Shown here in pieces: positions 4,162 through 34,756 of a stretch of DNA of 34,863 nucleotides. The DNA comes from Chloroflexota bacterium (lineage in GTDB: Bacteria; Chloroflexota; Anaerolineae; B4-G1; DUEL01): positions 1-34,863 of the forward strand of contig JADBJJ010000006.1 in NCBI GenBank assembly GCA_014874475.1, given 5' to 3'. The notes below the pieces were generated by a model. That model was not told the origin of the DNA and did no database searches. It saw only the letters and a list, made by a program, of their open reading frames with translations. Made by a program: the position numbers and the translations under genes. Each line of letters starts with the position of its first letter. Position 1 is the stretch's first letter.

Positions 4162-5703
4162 TTAGTCTGGCGCTACCAGAGCGCGCCGGTCAATCTTCCC
4201 CGACGGAGTCCTGGGAAGACGCTCCCGAACCTCCACGTAGCGGGGGACAGCGAAGTCCTCCAGGTGCTGCGCGCAGTGGCGAAGAACGTCCTGCCGGGTG
4301 AGCCGGACACCGTCCCCGCAAACGATGACCGCCTTAATGGCCTGCCCCAGGACTTCGTCCGGCACGCCGACGACGGCGGCCTCCACCACCCCCGGTAGTT
4401 TGTAGAGCACTTCCTCCACCTCGCGCGGGGCCACCTTCTCCCCCCGCGTCTTGATGACGTCGTCCTTGCGGGCGACGAAGTACAGGAATCCGTCCTCGTC
4501 CATATAGAAGAGGTCGCCGGTGTAGAGTAGCCGCTCAGCGGGATACCGACCAGGACGGTAGCGCCGCGCCGTCTCCTCCGGGTCGTTCCAGTACCCCTGC
4601 ATGACGTGAGAGCCTCTCACGACCAGTTCCCCTATCTCTCCCGGCCCCAACCTTCGTCCTGTCTCGTCCTCAATCCAGACCTCGGTGCCAGGGATGGGGA
4701 TACCGACGGAGCCAGGCCGCCGGTCCAGTTCCTCCGGGGGCATATAGCAGACCCGCTTGCATTCCGTCAGGCCGTACATGGAGTAAAAGCGCACCCAGGG
4801 AAAGCGCTCCCGCAGGCGGCGAATGTGCTCCACTGGCAGCGCGGCTGCCGTGTTGGTCATATAGCGCAGAGAGGATAGGTCAAAACGGCTCAGGTTCATC
4901 GGGAGCAACATCGCGTAGAGGGTTGGGACGCCGGGAAGCCCTGTCACCCGCTCCGCCTCAATCCGGCGCAGGACCGCCGCTGGATAGACGAAGGACCGCT
5001 CCAGCACCAACCGGCCGCCGAACTTGAAGACCATGAGCAACTGATAGAGACCGTAGTCAAACGAGAGCGGCAGAACGTTGATGACGACGTCGTCCGGGGT
5101 GTTCTCCAGATACCGGATGATGGACGACGCGGCGAAGACGACGTTGGCGTGGGTGGACATAACCCCCTTCGGCTCGCCAGTACTGCCGGAAGTGTAGATG
5201 AGGCAGGCCAGGTCCACGTCAATGGTGGGACAGCGTGGACGGGCCGACGGCGCGGCGTCCAGAACCTCGTCCCACCGTTCGCCGGGCAGGTCAACCGGGG
5301 TGTCCGGCGGCTCCCCGCAGAGGATGACGGTTTGGAGCGATGGGACGGCCTGGCGCAGAAACCGAGCATCCCCGGCCTGATGGGCGGGAAGGACCAGCGC
5401 GCTGGCCGTGCAATTATTCAGGATACGGGCCACCTTTCCGGCGGGGGTGGTAGCGTGCAGGACGACGAAGATGCCCCCCGCCTTCAGCGCACCAAAGATG
5501 GCGACGACGGCTTCAACGGAATTGGGAAGCCAGATTGCGACCCGGTCGCCCCGCTGGAGCCCCTGTGCGCGCAGGGCATGGGCCAACTGGTTGGCCTGCG
5601 TCTCTATCTCTGCGTAGGTCAACCGTCGCCCGTCGCAGACCAGCGCAACTTTGTCCGGGAATCGTTCCGCACCGTCTTCCAGAAAATGGTGAACTAACTG
5701 CAT
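4162..5703 (-). CDS. AMP-forming acyl-CoA/acyl-ACP ligase, exosortase-locus type
   Basis: This 513-residue member of the ANL superfamily activates a carboxylic acid as acyl-adenylate and passes it to CoA or to a carrier-protein thiol. The core motifs are all visible: YTSGSTGEPKG at 170-180 (ATP binding), MYGLTEC near 312, YTGDLF near 402, and TPSGKIDR near 500-507 with the catalytic lysine. The N-terminus (LVHHFLEDGAERFPDKVAL) matches the ligase family that accompanies exosortase A/EPS clusters (TIGR03098-like), whose usual partner is a small acyl carrier protein. An ACP is encoded at the head of this same operon (12372-12656), which supports acyl-ACP formation. ATG 5703 is preceded by GGGAGA. 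The 110-nt gap to the giant surface-protein gene upstream has no convincing promoter. The substrate is unknown. Confidence 0.85.
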   Translation of the reverse strand: MQLVHHFLEDGAERFPDKVALVCDGRRLTYAEIETQANQLAHALRAQGLQRGDRVAIWLPNSVEAVVAIFGALKAGGIFVVLHATTPAGKVARILNNCTASALVLPAHQAGDARFLRQAVPSLQTVILCGEPPDTPVDLPGERWDEVLDAAPSARPRCPTIDVDLACLIYTSGSTGEPKGVMSTHANVVFAASSIIRYLENTPDDVVINVLPLSFDYGLYQLLMVFKFGGRLVLERSFVYPAAVLRRIEAERVTGLPGVPTLYAMLLPMNLSRFDLSSLRYMTNTAAALPVEHIRRLRERFPWVRFYSMYGLTECKRVCYMPPEELDRRPGSVGIPIPGTEVWIEDETGRRLGPGEIGELVVRGSHVMQGYWNDPEETARRYRPGRYPAERLLYTGDLFYMDEDGFLYFVARKDDVIKTRGEKVAPREVEEVLYKLPGVVEAAVVGVPDEVLGQAIKAVIVCGDGVRLTRQDVLRHCAQHLEDFAVPRYVEVRERLPRTPSGKIDRRALVAPD

Positions 5704-5813: not shown

Positions 5814-8800
5814 TCACTGCCCCCGACACACCAGTGGCAGGTACACCTCGTAGGGCCGCAGGACCAGCGGCCCCGCCACATTGTTCGCCTCATCCGATTC
5901 CGGCACCAGGCCGTATGGGTACAGGCGGTGATTGTCCACCCGGGCGTAGAACTCCCGGATACCCTGAATCTCCTGAGACGTGAAACCGCTGTGGTGCAGG
6001 GTTACCGTAGATCGCTCCCCCGGTGCCAGAACAGGTACGCCCGCATAGGCGAAACCGTAACTCTCGCAGGGGTAGGAAGGTACGGGGGTCGTGAAAACGT
6101 CCACCCAGAATCCCCCGTTGTTATCCGGATTCCAGGCCATTCCCGTCCCCTGATTCCATATCCCGATGGTAAAAGTGACAGGTTTGTTCGGCTCAAGCGT
6201 CGCCGGGTCCACCTGAAAGTCGGTGATGACCAGGTCGGGGACGCCGATGGAGACTATGTAGGTGTTGTCCGCTGGCTGCGCGTCCCCGTGCGGGTTGCTG
6301 ATGGTGAACGGGATGGAGAACTGGTTCGCGCCGACGTTCATCTGCTGAACGTGGCTGATGACCAGCGTCACCGTCGGCCCTGTGCTTCCGGCAGGCAGGG
6401 AGCCGACCGGATAGGTGTACGTCTGGCTGCCAGCGGGCTGCCAGCCGCCCCCCCGATAGACCGTCGCGGCCGGGATCACCGCGGTGATGACCACGTTCTC
6501 CGCGTGCATGGCTCCGGTGTTGGAGTACGTCACGGTAAAGGTCATCACCTTGCCAGGAGAGAACAGGCTGGGCTTATAGGTGACCACCAATCGCAGGTCG
6601 GGTCGGGTGCCGATGAGGTCCACATCCTCTACCTCAACCGGCGCGGCCAGCGAGGGGGCCGTCATCCGGGCGCGGTTGACCAGCCGGTCGGCTCCCGCCG
6701 CCAGCGGATGATTCACCTGCATCGCCACCTGACCCTGGAAGACGCCGGGCGCGGCCAGGAAGGGGATTGGGAAGACAACCTTGTCGCCCATTCGCTGACA
6801 ACTCGCCGCCGGCTGGCAGCCCAGATACTCCGCGTGGTTCGGCAGCGTGTCGGTGACCACGATCCCATAGGCGTTCTCGTTGCCGCTGTTGGTAACGGTG
6901 AGGGTATAAGTCAGCCGGTCGCCCGCATAGACGACGGTCACCCCGTCGCTCTTGACCAGCGAAAGAACCGGCGCGCTGGTGACGGTCGTCTGCGCCGTGG
7001 CGGTCAGCGGAACCCCCTCGGCGTACGACAGCCGGGCCTGGAAGGGGAGCACCGTGCCATTGGTCAGCGGAGAGGTCACCAGGACGCGCAGGTCTATCCG
7101 CCCGCTCCCGCCCTCGCCGGGGATGGTGCTGACGGTCCAGTACCAAGTCGTTCCAGCGCCTCCGGTGGGTGGGATCGTCGCCTCGGAGAAGGTGACGCGC
7201 GAGTCCAACGTGGCAGTGACCACCACGCTGGTAGCGTCGGCGTTGCCGGTGTTGGTGTAGCGCAAGGTGTAGGTCAATGGCGCCCCCGCTGGGACCGGGT
7301 CGGGCGAATCGGTAACGCTGAGAGTGACGGTCGGCGCGGCCGTGACCTGGGTGGTGGTGATGAAACTCGCTGGCTGCGACTCGTTGCTGCTCACGGTGAC
7401 CCTATTTGCCAGCATTGTCCCGTTGGGCAGAGGAGAGTGGACCCGTACCCGTACCACGAAGTTGTATGATTCGTTCGGATTGAGCGTCCCGACAACCCAG
7501 ACGTTGTTCCCCTGGGTCGGGGGCGGATTTGCCGAGAGGAAGGTCACCCGGCTGTCGTAGGTGTCGGTGATGCGGACGCCGGTGGCGGGCGCAGTGCCCA
7601 CGTTGTAGCAGGCGATGGAGTAGACCAGTTCCCCGCCCGCTGCCACCGGGTCCGGGTCGTCTACCTGCACGACGCGCAGGCTGGGCTCCGAAAGGGCCTG
7701 CGTGGTTTCGGTGATGGTGAAGGGGGCGGTCTGGTCGGTGGCCAGCGTCACCCGGTTGGTCAACACCGTCCCCGCCGGGAGAGGGCTGGCGACTCGGACG
7801 ATGACATCAATGGTCTGCGGGCTTCCGACGGGCAAACTTCCGAAGACCCAGCGCCGGTTGCCGCTCCCCGGCTGGGGCGGCGGGTTGGCGGAGACAAAGG
7901 AGACGTTGGCGTCGTACGTCTCGGTGACGACGACGCCCGTCGCGTTCTCGTTGCCGCTGTTGGTGATGACAATCGTGTAGTACAAAATCTCCCCGGCCAC
8001 GACCGGGTCGGGGTTATCGCTCTTGGTCATCGTGAGGACCGGACGGGAAGAGACAGTGGTGGTCTGAACGACGGCGATGGGCAGCGTCTGGTCCGAATCC
8101 AGCCAGGCGCTGTTGGTCAGTACCGTGCCATTGGGCAGCGGGCTCTGGACGGTGGCGGTGATGCGGATGGTGGCCGGCGCTCCAGGCGCCAGGTCTCCCA
8201 GAACCCAATAGCGGGTCTGTCCACTCCCCTGGGACGGTGGGATGGAGCCCACAAAGAGGGTCCGGATGTCCAGGACGTCGGTCACCACCACGCCGTGCGC
8301 CACCTCGTTGCCGGTGTTGCGGTACGTCAGAGTGTAGACCAGTTGGGCGCCCGCTTCCACTGGATCGGGGCCATCCGTCTTGGTCATAAGTAGAATGGGG
8401 GACGAACGGACGATCGTTGTCTGGACAGCGGTGACCGGCGTCGTCTGAGCACAGCCGATGACGGCAATGTTGGTCAGCACTGTCCCGTTGGTCAGAGGCG
8501 TTCGGACCTGCACCCGTAAAGTAATCTGACCGGAAGTGTTAACGGGCAGAGAGCCGAGCGTCCAGTAGGGGTTGCCGCCGACGAACCCGCTGGGAAGCGG
8601 CGTGGCGCCGCTGTAGGTCACGTTCCCGTCCAGCGTGTCGGTGATAACGACCCCTGTCGCCGCCTGGTTGCCGGTGTTGGAGTAGGTCAGGGTGTAGGTC
8701 AGATAGGCTCCGGCGTCCACGGGGTCAGTCATGTCTGTTTTGACCAGATTCAGGATGGGGGCCAGGACGGTCAGGACGGCGGTATCGCTGATGCCGCTGT

Positions 8801-11417
8801 GGGTCCCCACCACCGTCCACGTGCCCGGATTCTTTGAGACGTAGACGTTATTCGTCCAGGAGCCCCCGTGGCCGCCCTGGAGGATGCTGAAAGTCGTCTG
8901 GGCTGTTACATCCCCGCGCCAGTTTCCGTACACGTCGTACGCAGCGGTGGTGTACGTCTGGGACTGACCAGCCTGGATGGTGGCGGTATCCGGAGAGACG
9001 ATGATGTGGTGCAGCGCGGCCGGCTGGATGGTGACGCGCGCGGTGCTGGTGGCGGCCGCGTGCTGAGCGTCCTCTACCCGCAGGGCGACGGTGTAAACAG
9101 CAGCGACAGTCCAGGTGTACTGAACGGTCGCCCCCACGGCGTCGCCGTACTGACCGTCAAGATTCAGGTCCCAGGCGAAGAAGAGGGCGCCGCCGCCGGG
9201 GTCGGAACCGGTGCCGGTGAGGGTCACAGGTGCTCCAGCGGTTCCGGTATACGGCCCACCGGCGCTGGCGGTGGGCGGGAGGTTGAGGACGGTGACGGTG
9301 GCGAAGGCGGTGGCGGTCAGGCCACCGGAGTCGGTGACCCGAAGCGAGACGGTGTAGAGGCCGGGCTCGCCCCAGGAGTAGGAGGTGGTGGCGGTGAAGG
9401 CGTCGGTGAAGACGCCGTCGCCGTTCAGGTCCCAGGCGAAGGAGAGGATGCCGCCGCCGGGGTCGGAACCGGTGCCGGTGAGGGGGATGGTCGCCCCCTC
9501 GTTGCCGGAGTAGGGACCACCGGCGCTGGCGGTGGGCGGGAGGTTGAGGACGGTGACCGTCAGGGAGTCACTGCCTACGCCGTCGTCGTCGTCGGTGACC
9601 ACCAGGGTCACCAGGAAGGACCCTGGCTCGCTATAGATGTGGGTGGGAGTCAGCGCGCCGCCGAAGAGACCACCGTCTCCAAAGGTCCAGAGGATGGTGT
9701 GGGTATCCCCAGTTCCGGGGTCGGTGAAGACACCGGTAAACTGGACCGCTGCACCTTCATTGACCTGCTGGTCTGGGCCCGCATACACGGTCGGGGCGGC
9801 GTTGGTCACCGTCACCGGCGCCGTATCCAGGCCGGATGTGTTATTGTCATCCCAGACCCGCAGCGCGGCAGTGTAGAGGCCGTTTTCCGTGTAGGCGTGG
9901 GTCACAGTTACCCCGGTGGCGCGTTGTTGGAAAGTACCGGTGTAGTTAAAGTCCCATTCGTACAACGTGATGTCGTTGCCGGGGTCAGTGGAGGTGCGGC
10001 CATCAAAAAGGATGGGACTCCCCTCGGGGGCGGTGTAGGGCCCCCCGGCGCGGGCGGTCGGCGGAACGTTGGTCACCGTCAGCACGGCGGTATCCCAGAC
10101 CATTCCCCAGGTGCCGGTGATGGTCCAGATGCCGTCCTTCTCCGCCGTGTAGAGGTTGCCGTTCCAGGCCCCCCCTGCGTCGGGGCTGATGGTGAACGCG
10201 GTGCCGGAGGTGACGTCGCCGATGGGATTGGCGCAGAGGTCGGCGGAGGCCGCCGTGTAGGTCTGGACCTGTCCGGCGGCGACGGTGGCGCTTTTGGGGG
10301 CGACGGAGAGGCTGGCGGGCGGGCCGGGGGTCACCGTCAGCGTCGCGGTCGCCAACAGTGCCCCATAGGTGGCGGTGACGGTCCAGGTTCCGGCGACGCA
10401 GGCGGTGTAGCGGTTGGCGGCCCAGATACCCCCCGCGGCGGGGACGACGGTGTAACTTCCCACGCCGGTAGCGTCCCAGGAGTTACTGTAGGCGTCGTGA
10501 GCGGTGAGGGTGTAGGCGATAGATGCCCCGGCAGAAATGGCCGCCGTCGGTGGGGCCAGGGAAAGAGAGACCGGCTCGCCGTGGGCGAGAACAGCAGTCG
10601 TTTCGGTGACGATAAGGGGAACCGCGCCGTCGCGGCCGATGTGGGCGGCGTTGGTCAGGACGGCGCCGCCCTCCAGGCCGGGGGTGACCGTCACAAAGAC
10701 CAGAATCTGGCCGGAAATGGAAGCAGAAAGGGTGCCGATAGCCCAGTACGGGGCCGTCGGGGTGCCGCCATTCGGGGGTGGGGAGGCGCCAGCGTAGAGG
10801 ACGCGGGAATCCAGGACATCGGTGATGACCACGCCGGTCGCAGGGGCGCTCCCCGCATTGGTGTAGTGGAGGGTGTAGGTCAGCGGAGCGCCCGCCACGG
10901 CCGGGTCGGGGTTGTCCCCTTTGGTCATCTGCAGGTTCGGCGCGGCGACGGTAGTGGTGACCTGCGCGAATTGGGGGGGCACATCATCCCCGGCAATCGT
11001 TACCGTGTTGGTGACGACGGTGCCGTCCGGAAGGGTCAATGGGACGGTTACCGTCAACACAATTTCCCCGGCGGCCGATCCAGTAAGAGGACCGATGTTC
11101 CAGAAGGGAGCGTTCGGGAGGCCGCCGGACGGTTCGGGGAACGCGGAGACATACACGAGTGCGGGGTCCAGCGTATCGGTAATCACGACGCCGGTCACCG
11201 TCTCGGTGGTGGGGTTTCCGTAGGTCAGGGTGTAGACCAGAAGGCTGCCCGCCAGGACTGGGTCGGCGCTCTCCGTTTTGGAGAGGTCCAGGGGGACTTG
11301 CTGAAGAGCCGGGCGGGCGCTGGCGCGGGGAGAGAGAGCCAGCGAGAGGGCAATGACGCTCAGCAGGCCCAGCAGCACGGGAAGGCCCAGACGGTGGAGG
11401 GGATGGCAACGGTTCAT
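5814..11417 (-). CDS. Giant secreted surface protein with DUF11, PKD and CARDB-like domains
   Basis: This 1867-residue secreted protein is probably an elongated cell-surface stalk or adhesin. A signal peptide (hydrophobic core LGLPVLLGLLSVIALSLAL, ending near ASA at 35) is followed by two DUF11 repeats (about 40-275), two Ig-like invasin-type domains (about 285-455), four PKD domains with GGPY and WDFN/WDLN motifs (about 455-830), another Ig-like domain (about 835-910), and seven more DUF11 repeats (about 915-1720), most carrying a DPV.AG..L.YT core. A CARDB-like domain (from about 1725, PDLVITDFQVDP) closes the protein, which ends VYLPLVCRGQ. The last residues match the short C-terminal motif of another secreted protein here (12848-15142). 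The start codon overlaps the upstream lipoprotein stop (ATGA), so the two are translationally coupled. No catalytic domain is visible. Confidence 0.9.
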   Translation of the reverse strand: MNRCHPLHRLGLPVLLGLLSVIALSLALSPRASARPALQQVPLDLSKTESADPVLAGSLLVYTLTYGNPTTETVTGVVITDTLDPALVYVSAFPEPSGGLPNAPFWNIGPLTGSAAGEIVLTVTVPLTLPDGTVVTNTVTIAGDDVPPQFAQVTTTVAAPNLQMTKGDNPDPAVAGAPLTYTLHYTNAGSAPATGVVITDVLDSRVLYAGASPPPNGGTPTAPYWAIGTLSASISGQILVFVTVTPGLEGGAVLTNAAHIGRDGAVPLIVTETTAVLAHGEPVSLSLAPPTAAISAGASIAYTLTAHDAYSNSWDATGVGSYTVVPAAGGIWAANRYTACVAGTWTVTATYGALLATATLTVTPGPPASLSVAPKSATVAAGQVQTYTAASADLCANPIGDVTSGTAFTISPDAGGAWNGNLYTAEKDGIWTITGTWGMVWDTAVLTVTNVPPTARAGGPYTAPEGSPILFDGRTSTDPGNDITLYEWDFNYTGTFQQRATGVTVTHAYTENGLYTAALRVWDDNNTSGLDTAPVTVTNAAPTVYAGPDQQVNEGAAVQFTGVFTDPGTGDTHTILWTFGDGGLFGGALTPTHIYSEPGSFLVTLVVTDDDDGVGSDSLTVTVLNLPPTASAGGPYSGNEGATIPLTGTGSDPGGGILSFAWDLNGDGVFTDAFTATTSYSWGEPGLYTVSLRVTDSGGLTATAFATVTVLNLPPTASAGGPYTGTAGAPVTLTGTGSDPGGGALFFAWDLNLDGQYGDAVGATVQYTWTVAAVYTVALRVEDAQHAAATSTARVTIQPAALHHIIVSPDTATIQAGQSQTYTTAAYDVYGNWRGDVTAQTTFSILQGGHGGSWTNNVYVSKNPGTWTVVGTHSGISDTAVLTVLAPILNLVKTDMTDPVDAGAYLTYTLTYSNTGNQAATGVVITDTLDGNVTYSGATPLPSGFVGGNPYWTLGSLPVNTSGQITLRVQVRTPLTNGTVLTNIAVIGCAQTTPVTAVQTTIVRSSPILLMTKTDGPDPVEAGAQLVYTLTYRNTGNEVAHGVVVTDVLDIRTLFVGSIPPSQGSGQTRYWVLGDLAPGAPATIRITATVQSPLPNGTVLTNSAWLDSDQTLPIAVVQTTTVSSRPVLTMTKSDNPDPVVAGEILYYTIVITNSGNENATGVVVTETYDANVSFVSANPPPQPGSGNRRWVFGSLPVGSPQTIDVIVRVASPLPAGTVLTNRVTLATDQTAPFTITETTQALSEPSLRVVQVDDPDPVAAGGELVYSIACYNVGTAPATGVRITDTYDSRVTFLSANPPPTQGNNVWVVGTLNPNESYNFVVRVRVHSPLPNGTMLANRVTVSSNESQPASFITTTQVTAAPTVTLSVTDSPDPVPAGAPLTYTLRYTNTGNADATSVVVTATLDSRVTFSEATIPPTGGAGTTWYWTVSTIPGEGGSGRIDLRVLVTSPLTNGTVLPFQARLSYAEGVPLTATAQTTVTSAPVLSLVKSDGVTVVYAGDRLTYTLTVTNSGNENAYGIVVTDTLPNHAEYLGCQPAASCQRMGDKVVFPIPFLAAPGVFQGQVAMQVNHPLAAGADRLVNRARMTAPSLAAPVEVEDVDLIGTRPDLRLVVTYKPSLFSPGKVMTFTVTYSNTGAMHAENVVITAVIPAATVYRGGGWQPAGSQTYTYPVGSLPAGSTGPTVTLVISHVQQMNVGANQFSIPFTISNPHGDAQPADNTYIVSIGVPDLVITDFQVDPATLEPNKPVTFTIGIWNQGTGMAWNPDNNGGFWVDVFTTPVPSYPCESYGFAYAGVPVLAPGERSTVTLHHSGFTSQEIQGIREFYARVDNHRLYPYGLVPESDEANNVAGPLVLRPYEVYLPLVCRGQ
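9188..9559. repeat. Near-identical duplicated PKD-coding segments, 261-bp period
   Basis: Within the giant surface-protein gene, the blocks at about 9188-9298 and 9449-9559 contain long identical stretches at a constant offset of 261 bases. Examples are the run beginning CCGCCGCCGGGGTCGGAACC and the run beginning CCACCGGCGCTGGCGGTGGG. Each copy encodes the same part of a PKD domain (PPTASAGGPY and the TGTGSDPGGG loop). The conservation at DNA level points to a recent internal duplication or gene conversion. Confidence 0.8.
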
Positions 11418-12433
11418 GGCGCGGGGGTTCCTCTCTCCGGCGTGGGGGTGGGGCGCTCCGGTGTGTCAGTGGGCGGCGGCAACGGCGTATCCGTCGGCAG
11501 AACCGGCGGGCTGGTGGGCGGTGGGGGTGGCGGCGGGGGCGGCGGGGGTGGCGGAGGCGGTGGGGATGTCACCGTGGGCGTCGGGGTAAACATCCCCGGA
11601 GTGGGCGACGGCGTCGCCGTTATGGTCCTGCGCGGCCGGGCCGGCTTAGTCAATGTCGGAGATGGAGATGGCGGCACCGGGGATGGGGAGGGCAACGGCG
11701 GGGATATCTGGGTCGGTGTCGGATTCGGGCGGGTGGCCGTGGGAGAGGGGGTAGGGATACTCGTGGCACAGAACGTGCCAACCTGTGCTGCCTCTCCCTC
11801 CGGCTTCCGCATCTCCCAGCAGGTGGGGAGCGTGATGGACTCATCGTTGGTTGCGCAGTTCACCGCCCCTTCCTCAATGCGCACATAGACGGCCCCCCCG
11901 TTCAGCCGGACCCGGGCGCGGGTGGGTACCTCCAGAAGGGTCATAGAGACCGCGGTGGTGCCGATACGGTAGGACGCCTTCTGAGCGATCAGAGTCACCT
12001 CTCCATCCAGCACGGTCACATCCAGCAGGGGAAATGAACTGGGCTCATGAGTGGTGACGCGAGCGCCAGGGGAGAGTTCCATCGTGCTGCCATCGCCCAG
12101 GCAGAGGCGGGCCCCTTCTGTGAGGGCCATCATCTCCGCGGGCTTTCGGAGGATAACGGGGATTCCCGTCTGCATATCGCTCCATTCGGCGGCCTCGGCC
12201 CAACGGATCCGTGCCGCACCTCCGCACAGGGAAGCCTGAAGGTATGGGGGGACCCAAGCCTCAGTGGGCGCGGGGGTGCTCTGGCAGGCCAGAATGCCCA
12301 GCAGCATCAGTCCAGCCGCGATGAGGACCGTCCAGTGCTGGAGAGAAGCGGCGGGGAAGGCCTGCGCATACTCACCAGACCGTAATAGTCTCTGCACTGA
12401 CGAATGCGGGTTCCCGAATTTTTGCTTCCACAT
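11414..12433 (-). CDS. FecR-like lipoprotein with long proline-rich tail
   Basis: This 339-residue protein has a short cytoplasmic leader, a hydrophobic segment (VLIAAGLMLLGILAC) and a lipobox cysteine at residue 50, so it should be a membrane-anchored lipoprotein outside the cell. Residues about 80-205 resemble a FecR/FecR-like beta domain: an acidic start (LCLGDGSTMELSPGARV), a GEVTLIAQ strand and a VRIEEGAVNC strand. Residues about 220-339 are a low-complexity Pro/Thr/Ser tail, including 16 consecutive prolines, as expected of a cell-wall-spanning stalk. Its stop overlaps the start of the giant surface-protein gene by four bases, so the two are made together. The ATG at 12433 lies 62 nt inside the upstream ACP gene; a GTG at 12397 is an alternative but still overlaps. 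FecR domains usually sense or bind at the envelope; the partner here is unknown. Confidence 0.72.
   Translation of the reverse strand: MWKQKFGNPHSSVQRLLRSGEYAQAFPAASLQHWTVLIAAGLMLLGILACQSTPAPTEAWVPPYLQASLCGGAARIRWAEAAEWSDMQTGIPVILRKPAEMMALTEGARLCLGDGSTMELSPGARVTTHEPSSFPLLDVTVLDGEVTLIAQKASYRIGTTAVSMTLLEVPTRARVRLNGGAVYVRIEEGAVNCATNDESITLPTCWEMRKPEGEAAQVGTFCATSIPTPSPTATRPNPTPTQISPPLPSPSPVPPSPSPTLTKPARPRRTITATPSPTPGMFTPTPTVTSPPPPPPPPPPPPPPPPTSPPVLPTDTPLPPPTDTPERPTPTPERGTPAP
11508..11575. repeat. GGN-rich microsatellite encoding poly-proline
   Basis: A run of GGC/GGT/GGG triplets on the plus strand encodes, on the minus strand, the 16-proline tract and its flanks in the lipoprotein at 11414-12433. 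Such triplet runs change length by slippage, so the tail length is likely to vary between strains. Confidence 0.8.
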
Positions 12434-12847: not shown

Positions 12848-15142
12848 ATGGGTGTATTCTACCTATGCCCGTGCGCCATCGGCAAGGTAGAGGCCAATCA
12901 GCGGCCGTCAAAGGTTGTTTATAACACTGTGCAACATACCCGAGAGTTCCCAACCCCTCTGCGCTTATTTTGGGCACTCGGCATCGCTCTGGGAGCCGTT
13001 GCCATTCTCCTGGTAGTCGGTAGCCCTGAGGGCCTGCTCTCTCCGCCTCGGTCCGCCGTTGCGCAAACTTCTCCCCCCTTTCAGATTGTCTCCATCGCCA
13101 TTCCCACCTATCCCTATTCGCCCTGCCTGCGAGAGGCCTGGGACGGCCCCTACCGCTACCACTGGATGGACTGGTCCTGTTACCCCTCTTCCCCTTTTCC
13201 TGTGTCCGTCACCTACACCCTGCTGGTGATGGAGAACGACTATCTGCGGGTAACCATCCTGCCCGAACTGGGCGGGCGAGTTTACCAGATGATCTATAAG
13301 GCGACCGGCAGCAACGAACTCTACCAGAATCCCGTCATTAAACCCAGCCACTGGGGTCCGACCAACCAGGGCTGGTGGCTGGCAGTCGGCGGCATAGAGT
13401 GGGGTCTGCCGGTGGACGAGCACGGTTACGAATGGGGCGAGCCCTGGGCCTGGACGGTGGTCACCTCCGCCGCAGGCATCACTGTGACGGTGCGGGATAC
13501 CGATGCGGCCGACCGACTCCGCGCGGCCATAGACCTCTTCCTCCCTGCCGACCGGGGCTACCTGGCGGTCACCCCCCACCTGGAGAACCCGACCTCTTCG
13601 GCCCTCCGCTACAAGTTCTGGATCAACGGCATGCTGGCACCCGGGCCTGCGAACACCGTCGGCCCGGACTTGCGCTTTATCTTCAACGCCCCCGAAATGG
13701 CCGTCCATTCCACGGGCGACGATATCCATTTCCCGGGGTGCGCCTGGCGGACCTATACCAGTCCCGACTGCCGCTTCCCCTGGCCCATCCACCAGAGCGT
13801 GGACTTTTCCCGTCTGGGGAACTGGTACCGGTACCTGGGCTTCTTTGAGTATCCCCAGGCAGCCGCCAATTTCTTCGGTGTCTACGATACGGCGGCGCAC
13901 GAGGGCGTGGCCCGGGTCTTCCCCTCCACCGTTGCCCGGGGCGCCAAAGGGTTTGCTATGGGGTGGTCCGACCCGATAGACCCGTCCAACTGGACGGACG
14001 ACGGTTCTACCTACATAGAACAGCACGGTGGGGTGATGCCGGCCTTCTGGGACGAAGCGACGCTGCCGCCGCAGGAGACCCTCTTCTGGACGGAGTACTG
14101 GTACCCCGTTGGCGGCATCGGCGGCCCTTTTTCAGACGCTACGGCGGAGGCCGCGCTGCGGGTGGCCGGAGAGGACGGGGTCCTGCAGGTCGGTGTCCAC
14201 GCCACGGCCCCGCGTGCGGCAGGAGAGAGTCGCCTGCGGGTCTGGGAGACGGCGACCTGTGCGCCGGTCGCACGGTTGGACCTCCCCGAGGTGGACCCGG
14301 CCCGCCCGTTCACTGCCACCCTTCCCCTGGGGGGCCGGACTCCGGGGCAGGTCTCGGTGGCCTACGTGGACGCGCGGGAGAACGTCCCGGCGGGCCACCG
14401 ACCAGTGGGCTGTGCCGCCTTTCCGGCGGCGCGCGTGGCGCCGCTGCCATCCTACGTGACCACTGCGACCTTTGCCCTCTCCTGGCTGAAGCCGGATCCC
14501 TGGTGGGGCCCGGCAACGTTCCAGGTCCAGGTGCGGGATGGCTCCGATGGCCCCTGGACAGATTGGCTGACCGAAACTCAGGACGTCTCGGCGACATTCA
14601 CCGGTGTTCACGGCCACACGTACTTCTTCCGCGCCCGTACGCTGGAACGGGGGGAAGGATTTGCCGGGGGTGACGAAGGGCAGGCCTTCACATCCGTCCT
14701 GCTGGAGCCCGCGCCCGTGCTGGTCACTTCCCGCAAGACCGCCGCGTGGAGCCTGGGCGTTGTCCTCTCCGATGACACGCCCATCGCGGCCGAAGTCCTC
14801 TCCTATCGGGTTGTCCTCTCCAACACCGGCAACCTGACGGCGACGACCGTCATCACTGACACCCCGTTTTGGGGAACGCGCGTCCTGACGGAGACCCTGG
14901 CAGCCGATAGCGGGCCGCCGCCGGTGTGCGAAGGGGGCCGGATTCGCTGGAGCGGGGAGATCAGGCCGGGAGAGAGTCGCTGGGTTCAGTACACCGTCGT
15001 CCCCACTGATGCCCTACGGCGTGGAGACCTGATTACCAATACGGTGGAGGTGATGGGGAGCGTCTTGGGGCCTTTCACCCGTCAGTTTGTGACGGTCTGG
15101 CCCTGGCACTGCTATCTTCCGCTGGTGCGGCAGGGAGGGTAG
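12848..15142 (+). CDS. Secreted DUF5107-domain protein with C-terminal DUF11-like domain
   Basis: This 764-residue exported protein has no assigned activity. After a leader of about 40 residues, a hydrophobic segment (FWALGIALGAVAILLVVGS) and an AVAQ cleavage-like site form the signal. Residues about 125-420 match DUF5107, a galactose-mutarotase-like beta-sandwich fold (ENDYLRVTILPELGGRVY is its start). Residues about 535-620 look like a fibronectin-type domain, and about 630-755 form a DUF11-like repeat (LSYRVVLSNTGNLTATTVITD). The protein ends CYLPLVRQGG, sharing the YLPLV tail with the giant protein at 5814-11417. Start choice is uncertain: ATG 12848 has no clear ribosome site, and a GTG at 12929 would give a more normal signal peptide. 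It is transcribed away from the surface-polymer operon. Carbohydrate binding is plausible but inferred. Confidence 0.8.
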   Translation: MGVFYLCPCAIGKVEANQRPSKVVYNTVQHTREFPTPLRLFWALGIALGAVAILLVVGSPEGLLSPPRSAVAQTSPPFQIVSIAIPTYPYSPCLREAWDGPYRYHWMDWSCYPSSPFPVSVTYTLLVMENDYLRVTILPELGGRVYQMIYKATGSNELYQNPVIKPSHWGPTNQGWWLAVGGIEWGLPVDEHGYEWGEPWAWTVVTSAAGITVTVRDTDAADRLRAAIDLFLPADRGYLAVTPHLENPTSSALRYKFWINGMLAPGPANTVGPDLRFIFNAPEMAVHSTGDDIHFPGCAWRTYTSPDCRFPWPIHQSVDFSRLGNWYRYLGFFEYPQAAANFFGVYDTAAHEGVARVFPSTVARGAKGFAMGWSDPIDPSNWTDDGSTYIEQHGGVMPAFWDEATLPPQETLFWTEYWYPVGGIGGPFSDATAEAALRVAGEDGVLQVGVHATAPRAAGESRLRVWETATCAPVARLDLPEVDPARPFTATLPLGGRTPGQVSVAYVDARENVPAGHRPVGCAAFPAARVAPLPSYVTTATFALSWLKPDPWWGPATFQVQVRDGSDGPWTDWLTETQDVSATFTGVHGHTYFFRARTLERGEGFAGGDEGQAFTSVLLEPAPVLVTSRKTAAWSLGVVLSDDTPIAAEVLSYRVVLSNTGNLTATTVITDTPFWGTRVLTETLAADSGPPPVCEGGRIRWSGEIRPGESRWVQYTVVPTDALRRGDLITNTVEVMGSVLGPFTRQFVTVWPWHCYLPLVRQGG

Positions 15143-31513: not shown

Positions 31514-31613
31514 AAGACTGAGCTTTTAACACAGCAGGCCGTTTATTTGACACATAGAGTCTGCAGCGCAAACTCTCACACAACTGCCCCGCACGGACAA
31601 GTTGCTGTCTCGT

Positions 31614-31685
31614 TCACTCACGTACTGCACTCTCGTTCGTGTACAGATACTCCTCCGCCGCTTGCTTGAGTGGGTTGGAAAACAT
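31614..31685 (-). CDS. Tiny ORF after the first attC-like site, probably a truncated cassette gene
   Basis: A 23-residue frame (MFSNPLKQAAEEYLYTNESA, then VRE) starts at ATG 31685 with a textbook GAGGAGG 7 nt upstream, then stops at TGA 31616-31614. It lies just downstream of the attC-like site at 31732-31856 in cassette orientation, where the next cassette's gene should begin. The amphipathic sequence is not recognised. It is either a very short peptide or the start of a cassette gene whose remainder was lost when the low-GC operon joined. The rest of the gap 31514-31613 holds nothing I can identify. Confidence 0.4.
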   Translation of the reverse strand: MFSNPLKQAAEEYLYTNESAVRE

Positions 31686-31731
31686 CGCTTTGCCTCCTCA
31701 TTTTAGGCGATCACAATAGTGGTATTGCGCC

Positions 31732-31856
31732 GGCTAACGGCACGGCGCAAGTCACGCGGCTCCGGCGATGAGCCTTCAATGGAAACCCCGGCGGCAGGCC
31801 TAGCCAACTCTACAACCGCTCATGATAGCGCAGTCGGCTCCACGCCGAGGTTAGGC
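31732..31856 (-). repeat. attC-like recombination site 1 (imperfect)
   Basis: On the minus strand the site opens with GCCTAAC (31856-31850, consensus RYYYAAC) and an L-box TGGAGCCG (31842-31835). It closes with an L-box partner GGCTCA (31774-31769) and GTTAGCC (31738-31732), one base off the GTTRRRY core. The L-box pair leaves one G unpaired on the first arm, the extrahelical base typical of attC. The spacing between second L-box and final core is about 30 nt instead of 8, so this copy is degenerate. It begins 5 nt after the stop of the gene at 31862-32560. Confidence 0.5.
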
Positions 31857-31861
31857 AGCAA

Positions 31862-32560
31862 CTATCTCGGATGACAACTCCTACATCCAGCCGCCATCTC
31901 TATTGTCTCTCGCATTCGGACGACCACCCCATGTGCGAGCCCCAACGACAGTAAGTAGATCGCTCCAAATGGTATTATGAATCCTCGCGCCATCGTGTAG
32001 ACAAGTACCGTAAAGACGACAAACAGCACGCCCTGTATTGCGGCCCATATGCTCAACGTTCGTATGTAATCGCTGTTGCTACCCTGTTTGCGCGCCATCA
32101 TGCCCAACGCGACGAAGAACAAGGTGAAAAACAGAAACTCGGCCGGCAGCATCAACTTGCTCCACCACTCCGGTGGTGTAACCCCCTCCCAAAGGTTGAT
32201 CCACGAGGGAAGCGGCCACAGAATCTGAACCCCATTGAACCACACCACCAGGTCAAGCAGGATATGCATCAGCACACCAATTCCTAGCCCCAGCCCCAAG
32301 TAACCCCAGCGTGGACGTCTCACTATCCAGGCCACGACATAGAACAGCGCGATGACCGCAGCAACGGTGAAGAGACTGTGGGTGAACGTGCGATGCAGCC
32401 CCTTCGTAGACCATCCCGCTAGTGTGGCAACTGCAACAGCCAGGTTGTCAGTATCCGGCACTATGCTACCCAAGACAATGCCCAACATCAACCATTCTCG
32501 TTTGGGTACCCATCTCCGTACCGCAAGTCCAACAATCCCGTGAATTCCTGCTTGCGCCAT
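31862..32560 (-). CDS. YdjM-like inner-membrane metal-dependent hydrolase (PF04307), cassette gene
   Basis: This 232-residue membrane protein belongs to the DUF457/YdjM family (PF04307), inner-membrane proteins predicted to be zinc-dependent hydrolases and in some bacteria part of the SOS regulon. Visible metal-type residues are H7 (AGIHGIVG), D36 and D38 in PDTDN, HRTFTHSLF, and HILLD. Five to six hydrophobic helices follow. ATG 32560 is chosen over an in-frame start at 32638 because AAGGAGGAG lies just upstream and the longer start would run back into the attC-like site. The gene begins 34 nt after one attC-like site and ends 5 nt before the next, which is the layout of an integron gene cassette. 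Function in the host is unknown. Confidence 0.83.
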   Translation of the reverse strand: MAQAGIHGIVGLAVRRWVPKREWLMLGIVLGSIVPDTDNLAVAVATLAGWSTKGLHRTFTHSLFTVAAVIALFYVVAWIVRRPRWGYLGLGLGIGVLMHILLDLVVWFNGVQILWPLPSWINLWEGVTPPEWWSKLMLPAEFLFFTLFFVALGMMARKQGSNSDYIRTLSIWAAIQGVLFVVFTVLVYTMARGFIIPFGAIYLLSLGLAHGVVVRMRETIEMAAGCRSCHPR

Positions 32561-32593
32561 TTCGGCTCCTCCTTGAGCACAATAGTAGTCGCT

Positions 32594-32726
32594 GCCTAAC
32601 GGTAAAACTGAGCCGCCCTCACCCACTTTGGTGGACAAGATGCACGTGAATTACCGACGCCTTGACAGGCATGACCCGTCACAAGAAAGCGCCAGAGCGG
32701 GACGTCGGCTCCAGCGTGTGTTGGGC
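32594..32726 (-). repeat. attC-like recombination site 2
   Basis: Read on the minus strand, this 133-bp site has core GCCCAAC (32726-32720), L-box TGGAGCCG (32713-32706), a central region of about 90 nt, L-box partner CGGCTCA (32615-32609) and core GTTAGGC (32600-32594). Both cores fit RYYYAAC/GTTRRRY. The two L-boxes pair except for one extra G, the hallmark extrahelical base of integron attC sites, and the core-to-L spacers are 6 and 8 nt. It lies 25 nt after one gene and 34 nt before the next, as expected between two cassettes. Confidence 0.75.
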
Positions 32727-32751
32727 GACGATGGTTTACTGTGCTGATATG

Positions 32752-33384
32752 TTATGGCCGAGGAACCCACGGTGGTGGTCCACCCGCTCCCGGTGGTAGC
32801 CCACCTGCCCCCGGTGGTGGTCCACCTGCCCATGGTGGTGGTCCACCCGCTCCCGGCAGCCGCCCACTGGCGCCAGCATTCTCCTCCACCGCACCTGGCC
32901 CGCGGAGATGAACATTGATCCCCAAGCGGAATGGCGCAGCGCTGGTGATCCCCCGACCGACTGCCCGGAGATGCAAGTTTGCCTTCTTGCCTTCACCAGT
33001 CAGGACAAGGTTATAGGTTCCACGAATGCTGAAGCTCCCACTCTCACCCGGGCCGATGACCAACGGCAACCCGCTGGCCACCGCAGTGGCTGCTGGGGCT
33101 TGCCGCCGTGGACGCGGGGTTGTGTGGCTGAGTTGTAGATGGTCAATGCGCACCGCCTCGGCGCTGCCAGCATGATTTGTGATTGTGACGCGGATCTCAT
33201 AGTCCCCTGGGTCCAATGCATTATCGCACCAGAATCGGCTGTCCCACGTTAAAGTGACGCCTCGAGTAACGATCTTGGTCTCCTGCCTGACCGGCTCACA
33301 GACTCGGGTCTGGGCAAAGGCCGGTGCCGTGAAGACGCCAACGAGCGCCGTCACTATGAGTATCGCTATTCCTAAACGAAACAT
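32752..33384 (-). CDS. Secreted protein with proline-glycine repeat tail, cassette gene
   Basis: This 210-residue exported protein has a clean signal peptide (LGIAILIVTALVGVFTAPAFA, cleavage before QTRV). A domain of about 120 residues follows, resembling an Ig-like beta sandwich (YEIRVTITNHAGSAEAVRIDHL, GPGESGSFSIRGTYN). The tail of about 35 residues repeats G-G-P-P-P with A/L/W variation, encoded by a 21-bp tandem repeat. ATG 33384 is favoured by GGGAGGTGA just upstream; the longer in-frame start at 33423 would precede the signal. Its stop lies 25 nt before the attC-like site at 32594-32726, so it appears to be the gene of that cassette. I do not recognise the family. A cell-surface role is inferred from the export signal only. 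Confidence 0.72.
   Translation of the reverse strand: MFRLGIAILIVTALVGVFTAPAFAQTRVCEPVRQETKIVTRGVTLTWDSRFWCDNALDPGDYEIRVTITNHAGSAEAVRIDHLQLSHTTPRPRRQAPAATAVASGLPLVIGPGESGSFSIRGTYNLVLTGEGKKANLHLRAVGRGITSAAPFRLGINVHLRGPGAVEENAGASGRLPGAGGPPPWAGGPPPGAGGLPPGAGGPPPWVPRP
32771..32858. repeat. Four 21-bp tandem repeats in the cassette gene
   Basis: Units of the form GGTGGTGGTCCACCCGCTCC repeat about every 21 bases from 32771 to 32858, with single-base changes between units. They encode the GGPPP tail of the secreted protein at 32752-33384. Copy number probably varies by slippage. Confidence 0.85.
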
Positions 33385-33487
33385 AGTTTCACCTCCCTTC
33401 TCGTGTACTTTCAAGCCACCCAACGATTCGCGCTTCAGCCTACAGTATAATTATTGACGTTCGCAAAGATATAGGAATAATCACAAC

Positions 33488-34012
33488 TGGCTGCAGCGTA
33501 AATCCGCTTTCGTCCGTCAGGACGATGCTCCACCCCTGGTCACAGGCTTTTTTCACCTGGGGTCACTGCTCCTCTCGTCACTGCCGGACGGCGGCCTCGT
33601 CCCGTTTGCGAGCCCGCCGCTCCGGCTTCTGGGCATTCCAGCCCATCTCCTGTAGAATGCGCCATACGTGTCCTGGATGATACTGCACCTGAAAGTGACG
33701 CTCAATCACCTGAGCCACCCGAGCCAGCGTCCACAGATCTGTGGCAAAACCGGCTGCCAGCGCCCCTTGCTGCAGGATCTGGGCCAATGTTTGCTTCTGT
33801 TGGGAGGTCAGTTTCGGCGGTTTCCCAGGATGCGGACGCGCTTTCAGCTCTCCCATCCCCCCTCGCTCCAGCAGTCGCTTCCAGCGCGATACCGACGAGG
33901 GGGAGGCACCAACCAAGCGGGCGACTTCTCGCACCCCTTTTCCTTCCTGCAGCAACTTGCCCGCAATGCGACGACGGACTTCCAGTGCTTCGGCACTCCC
34001 TTTTGGTCTCAT
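33488..34012 (-). pseudogene. IS630-family transposase, two stops and 3' truncation
   Basis: From ATG 34012 an N-terminal helix-turn-helix part is intact (REVARLVGASPSSVSRWKR, then a second winged-helix half with HPGHVWRILQEMGWN). It stops at TGA 33580-33578 after AVRQ. In the same frame, reading on through that TGA and a second TGA 15 bases later gives the expected continuation with two tryptophans (Q-W-R-E-E-Q-W-P-Q-V-K-K) and the DDE start WSIVLTDESGFTLQP. So both TGAs are TGG-to-TGA changes. The DDE domain is then lost at about 33488. TGA is used as a normal stop elsewhere in the window, so recoding is not supported. An IS630-like 3' end is also present at the left edge of the window (1-85), but the two need not be copies of one element. 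Confidence 0.85.
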
Positions 34013-34183: not shown

Positions 34184-34756
34184 ATGAAGCGGAAAAAGCG
34201 TTCTTACTCCCAACTGCGAAAGAAGCAGAAGAAAACCCCCTACCGGGTCCGGAATTGGCCGGAATATGACCGGGCGCTGGTTCAGAGAGGTTCGGTGATT
34301 CTTTGGGTGTCGGACGATGCCATCGCCGGATGGCTGTACAATGGACCGACCCACCGAGGCGCCCCTTTTGTCTACAGCGACACGGCCATTGAGACCGTCC
34401 TGACCCTCCGGGAAGTGTACCACCTGCCCAACCGAGGAGCAGAGGGTTTTGTGCGTTCTCTGTTCCAGAAGATGGGAATTCCCCTGCCGGTGCCTGACCA
34501 TACCACCCTCTCGCGCCGGGGTAGAACGGTGCGAGTCCACCTGCCCAAAAAGGCCAAAGGCCCGCTCCACGTGGTGCTGGATAGTAGCGGGCTGAAGGTC
34601 TATGGTGAAGGGGAGTGGAAAGTCCGTCTGCATGGCCCATCAAAACGGCGCACCTGGCGGGTATGCCATCTGGCGGTAGAGAGCACAGGGGGCGAAATTC
34701 AGGCAGTGGAATTGACCGAGGCCGGCGTGCATGATTCTGCGAAGCGGCGCCAGGTG
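34184..34756 (+). pseudogene. IS5-type transposase interrupted by a group II intron
   Basis: A plus-strand frame from ATG 34184 encodes an IS5-family-like transposase: a basic N-terminus, YRVRNWPEYDRALVQRGSV, WLYNGPTHRGAPFVYSDTAI, and the DDE start VVLDSSGLKVYGEGEWKV with its first Asp. The next block (GPSKRRTWRVCHLAVESTGG) is also typical. After about residue 180 (TEAGVHDS) the sequence leaves the family, and at 34757 the 3' end of a group II intron on the other strand begins. The second Asp and the Glu are not in the window. The frame stays open to the window edge only because it reads through intron RNA sequence. A fragment of a near-identical copy lies at 23444-23603. The 34013-34183 gap upstream holds only the presumed IS end. 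Confidence 0.8.

Follow-up and report, generated by a model that had tools for sequence, protein, structure and literature searches.

A short integron cassette array with a disrupted upstream attC site in a genome of the Anaerolineae (Chloroflexota)

Introduction

Two neighbouring minus-strand genes, each followed by a site that resembles an integron attC, raise the question of whether they are integron cassettes and, if so, whether there is an integrase that could still move them. A sequence-only reading of this DNA had described them as integron-type cassettes without an integrase (CALIN) in a probable Chloroflexota genome. The window analysed here is contig C4 from end to end (34.9 kb), and belongs to a genome of 3.0 Mb, 98% complete, from the Anaerolineae (Chloroflexota). 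The array on C4 is a short integron cassette array with two whole cassettes and one remnant, in a genome near the Thermoflexales. Our preferred reading, to which we give a probability of roughly 0.93, is that it is a decayed two-cassette integron array with a remnant, in which each cassette consists of a gene and its attC and the integrase IntI would be provided in trans from another contig.

The array and its genes

The placing of the host proved sound, as the nearest named relatives of the IntI of this genome, on comparison of the integrases, belong to metagenome-assembled genomes (MAGs) of Thermoflexales and other Anaerolineae (85% for JACIWQ010000149.1), which supports the assignment to Chloroflexota. 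The positions proposed for the two genes were verified, with gaps from stop codon to R'' of 5 and 25 nt, one gene per attC and a single orientation throughout (Table 1).

Table 1. Features of the array and related loci; positions are those of the window unless a locus (L) is named.
Feature	Position	Strand	Basis or remark
Third-cassette remnant, short ORF MFSNPLKQ...	31600..31737	-	sequence; lower boundary approximate
attC site 1, end of cassette B	31732-31856	-	model R1 33.0 bits; weaker L' box
Cassette B	31738..32599	-	core positions in sequence
Cassette B gene, YdjM-family membrane-bound metal-dependent hydrolase homologue, 232 aa	31862..32560	-	PF04307 6e-20
attC site 2, end of cassette A	32594-32726	-	model R1 34.8 bits; strict rule
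Cassette A	32600..33423	-	between R' cut points of site 0 and site 2; core positions in sequence
Cassette A gene, 210 aa, secreted, C-terminal 7-residue repeats	32752..33384	-	ORF
Site 0 right half (L'/R'), GGCTGAAGCGCGAATCGTTGGGT; R' = GTTGGGT at 33418-33424	33418..33440	-	C11 match
IS630-like transposase N-terminal ORF, truncated element inside site 0	33578..34012	-	HTH_33/HTH_32/HTH_29 Pfam matches
Truncated DDE transposase gene, insertion-sequence remnant inside site 0	34184..34738	+	PF13737 5e-36, PF01609 6e-7
Site 0 left remnant, CACCTGGCGCCGCTTCGC	34739..34756	-	directly after intron 3' end
Group II intron 3' end (domains V/VI), cut by contig end	34757..34863	-	Rfam RF00029 34757-34834, 61.3 bits
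Group II intron copies beyond the window	L068 5258-5508; L069 about 4408-4934 and 7857-8923	+	domain V
Decayed intI copies	L012 about 14530-14980; L013 about 11340-11760; L014 1-180		attI-like regions and cassettes after the L012 and L013 copies

The YdjM-like hydrolase that had been named as cargo is indeed carried by cassette B, its protein matching most of the PF04307 profile. The product of the cassette A gene has no Pfam match over the cut-off and no NCBIfam match, and so falls in no named family; the repeat in the tail of this gene is 21 nt long, which corrects an earlier note. A search of the proteins of both cassettes for defence families gave no match. The third cassette is a remnant with no attC after it and with no homologue among the fetched loci. 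At the far end of the contig, positions 1-81 of the window hold a repeat common to the left end of C4 and the end of contig C17 (98.8% over 81 nt), which is probably an insertion sequence.

The attC sites

Site 2 has the full set of attC features, as had been proposed, with an R'' core GCCCAAC (consensus RYYYAAC), an R' core GTTAGGC (consensus GTTRRRY), complementary L boxes, one extrahelical base and a variable centre. Site 1 was expected to be the weaker of the two and is, having an R'' of GCCTAAC, an R' of GTTAGCC that is one letter off RRR, and an L' that pairs poorly; the cores are usable, and it may be that site 1 recombines poorly on account of its weak L' box. On alignment both sites carry the inner sequence of other attCs, with the conserved internal sequence AGCCGAC..GC.CTATC..GCCTGCC common to site 1 and the attCs of a sister genus.

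A covariance model (R1) was trained on five attCs, none of them from the window, four being from sister-genus arrays that adjoin an intact intI in G001 and G002, and the fifth from C17 of the genome studied here. The structure that RNAalifold predicted for those five alone has the R and L boxes together with the internal loop and the extrahelical position. R1 recovered both of the proposed sites in the 34.9-kb window and, at E<=10, matched nothing else there, with E-values of about 4e-6 for site 2 and 9e-6 for site 1, which rise to 3e-4 and 8e-4 when the search covers the whole genome; the model was trained on few sequences, and its short calibration makes these E-values rough. A rule that demands strict cores and L boxes picks up site 2 in the window and has no match in 1.88 Mb of Markov-shuffled sequence. 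A search of the array part of the window against Rfam gave no attC match and found the intron alone.

Both sites stand directly after genes, as terminators do, and might on that ground be thought unrelated inverted repeats and not attCs, yet this is very improbable given the consensus R'' and R' cores at their two ends, the lack of a T-run, their R1 scores and their homology to attCs that adjoin intI. A terminator or chance-repeat identity was rejected on the R1 matches and the shuffle control. Judged by their sequence, both sites are integron attC sites.

A third attC upstream, split by an intron and insertion sequences

Only two complete attCs are found on C4, and a third (site 0), which the sequence-only reading missed, bounds cassette A upstream as two separated arms. 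The left arm is the 3' exon also seen in the intron-interrupted attCs of contigs C32 and C11, and the right half matches the 3' half of the intact C11 attC, GGTGAAGCGCGAGTCGTTGGGC; by this match the two arms would belong to one attC. Between them lie a truncated DDE transposase gene and a truncated element that was named IS630-like by inspection, the reading of its ORF going on in another frame to a stop near 33484. Next to the left arm a group II intron ends; its 3' part has the orientation of the cassettes, is 97.6% identical to a C32 copy and finishes in ..CCGTAAC, as does the complete copy on C11. As the arms of site 0 are parted by transposase remnants, the array once extended further upstream and its upstream attC has been destroyed.

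Integrase and attI sites elsewhere in the genome

There is no IntI on contig C4, which ends 2.1 kb upstream of site 2. Contig C27, however, carries an intact IntI of 317 aa (TIGR02249, 487 bits against a cut-off of 265), in which the R, HxxR and Y residues and the IntI-type insert are visible in the sequence. Upstream of this gene comes an attI-like region (core GTTGGGC), followed by two cassette genes and then an attC, after which the contig ends, so that the genome has, on C27, a complete integron with an intact intI adjoining attI and cassettes. On C10 and C17 alike, a decayed intI is accompanied by the same attI-like region (its last part lost on C17), after which come cassettes and an attC, and C16 starts within a further intI remnant. 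The GTTGGGC core is conserved in the attI-like regions of C27, C10 and one genus-mate. As two of the decayed intI copies are followed by attI-like regions and cassettes, this one genome has several platforms for attI but just one IntI that is intact.

At least 14 attCs were found in the genome, on seven contigs and including the two in the window. C32 with five and C11 with three hold multi-attC arrays, and C6 contributes as well. A fifteenth candidate on the other strand of C11 scores 28 bits. In a genus-mate (G007:C56, L033 1-1540), cassettes that have no long obvious gene and are rich in GGGAGCG/GGAAGGG-like repeats were seen between attI and attCs.

The description of the array as lacking an integrase is therefore right for the contig and wrong for the genome. 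The name CALIN may fit. It calls for at least two attCs less than 4 kb apart, which the array has, and for no intI next to them; none lies on C4, but the contig is broken in a repeat and the genome has an intact IntI. The array in the window is an IntI-less array fragment within an IntI-positive genome. With the contig breaking inside a repeat, the group II intron upstream, a CALIN and the distal portion of a broken integron would here look alike. It is possible, and we hold it tentatively at somewhat under even odds, that the array is such a distal part and no CALIN, having been split by the assembly at the repeated intron from an integron that bears intI on C27, C10, C17 or C16. The repeat in which C4 ends has four copies, an attC lies less than 70 nt from the end of C27 and likewise of C10, and C16 begins in its intI remnant, all of which would suit such a split. 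No overlap exists, though, between the right end of C4 and any of the intI contigs (the left end of C4 being the repeat common to C17), and C32 and C11 are themselves arrays without a nearby intI in the same genome.

A second alternative, which comes close to an even chance, is that the array is dead, an immobile set of relics with site 0 destroyed and site 1 degenerate. The splitting of site 0 by the intron and insertion-sequence remnants, the few L pairs of site 1, the truncated third cassette and the two decayed intI copies elsewhere in the genome are in keeping with this, whereas the good attC at site 2, the intact IntI and the open reading frames of both cassette genes speak against it.

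Under the preferred reading of a decayed array served by IntI in trans, the bottom strand of an attC would fold and the C27 integrase would cut it at G/TTRRRY, so that a cassette could be excised or inserted at attI, with the array in the window forming a decayed branch of the integron system of the genome. As the group II intron and insertion sequences entered the upstream attC, site 0 should no longer serve for the exchange of cassette A. We infer the action of the C27 IntI on the attCs of the window, the present mobility of the cassettes and the way in which the array came apart from an intI.

Distribution of the cassettes among relatives

In relatives the two genes are either missing or found outside cassettes. 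The gene of cassette B has no homologue in the other genomes of the family (12 of 12), and its best relatives within the class are 59-66% identical and occur in other Anaerolineae with no detectable attC alongside. For the gene of cassette A, one genus-mate carries a homologue (61%) that no attC follows, and among other Anaerolineae no second cassette-borne copy of either gene was found, the homologues lacking detectable flanking attCs. The spermidine synthase and radical SAM genes downstream of the array are conserved as a pair in three genus-mates, where different genes lie upstream of them and cassettes are absent. Presence thus varies among relatives at the species level, the genus-mates being different species, and this distribution fits lineage-specific gain on a comparison of species, not of strains. 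Along with the attC sites, the intact IntI of the genome and the attI-like regions with the same core, the lineage-specific presence of the two genes is apparent from the sequences compared.

Group II introns within attC sites

Domain V of the group II intron occurs in exactly four copies in the genome, allowing up to 3 mismatches, and a reversed control pattern had no match there. All four introns (Rfam RF00029) lie inside attCs, in the top strand and in the orientation of the cassettes. The intron of C11 is 251 nt long, and its exons, once joined, form a whole attC whose L box measures 11 bp; the C32b intron is about 1,067 nt and has an N-terminal piece of a reverse transcriptase (RT) fused to an HNH domain. 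The copies seen in the genome are without a reverse transcriptase core and, since RVT_1 has no match anywhere in the genome, they look RT-less and would have to move in trans.

Insertion is within L'' at GCGCTTC^CA, and the same point is used in the genus-mate G007 (G007:C42, L199), with the same 3' junction found twice in another genus (G139, L222/L223). The top-strand pattern accordingly holds for the four copies of this genome, for the one of the genus-mate and for both in the other genus. G157 has a related intron (G157:C313, L194) that sits after the bottom strand of an attC, as the rule for group IIC-attC introns says. It is an evenly balanced proposition that a sub-lineage of group II introns in the Anaerolineae has switched strand, so as to enter the top strand of attC at GCGCTTC^CA (L'') in the orientation of the cassettes; such introns would share the transcript of the cassettes and could, by splicing, restore the attC in RNA whilst blocking the excision of cassettes in DNA.

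Comparison with known systems

Cassette arrays had been called little described in this phylum, which is true only in part: earlier papers count Chloroflexi/Chloroflexota among the phyla that carry integrons (PMC2426708, PMC8618304, PMC9668308), and IntI is present in about a quarter of the sampled Anaerolineae, scoring over the TIGR02249 cut-off in 97 of 396 genomes, several of them with two or three copies. A full-text search of the literature on integron and attC in Anaerolineae found a single paper, which dealt with sul4. Set against the figure of about 20% of Gammaproteobacteria with IntI, as quoted in PMC8618304, this frequency makes the class a large and little-sampled source of cassettes. 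Integrons of Chloroflexota were thus already known, and what is less expected is the frequency of IntI in Anaerolineae and the top-strand introns. What the genome adds, for a lineage whose arrays have hardly been described, is an integron system that looks as if it works and includes IntI, attI and many cassettes.

The system is much like the sedentary chromosomal integrons and CALINs (Cury et al. 2016, cited in PMC8618304; IntegronFinder 2.0, PMC9024848), sharing attCs built of R''/L''/L'/R', gene-attC units in a single orientation, an IntI of the TIGR02249 family, an attI core GTTGGGC and attCs that are more similar within a lineage. It differs in little beyond the host lineage, with a lineage-specific attC family of about 130 nt (AGCCGAC..GCCTGCC) and with several attI regions that have decayed intI beside one intact IntI. 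The YdjM family (PF04307) is here found as a cassette, unlike its nearest homologues (66%), which lie in other Anaerolineae away from detectable attCs.

The introns resemble group IIC-attC introns in being group II introns within the attC sites of cassette arrays, with a group II catalytic core inside the attC. Those introns enter the bottom strand of attC at TTGT^T and opposite to the cassettes (PMC7923331), a paper that also cites one top-strand IIC case, from Enterobacter cloacae. None of bottom strand, opposite orientation or TTGT/T was found here; in this genome, in G007 and in G139 the introns are in the top strand within L'' at GCTTC^CA and follow the orientation of the cassettes, which is a departure from the published rule. 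The attC-borne introns therefore offer a test of how group II introns pick the strand of a folded attC.
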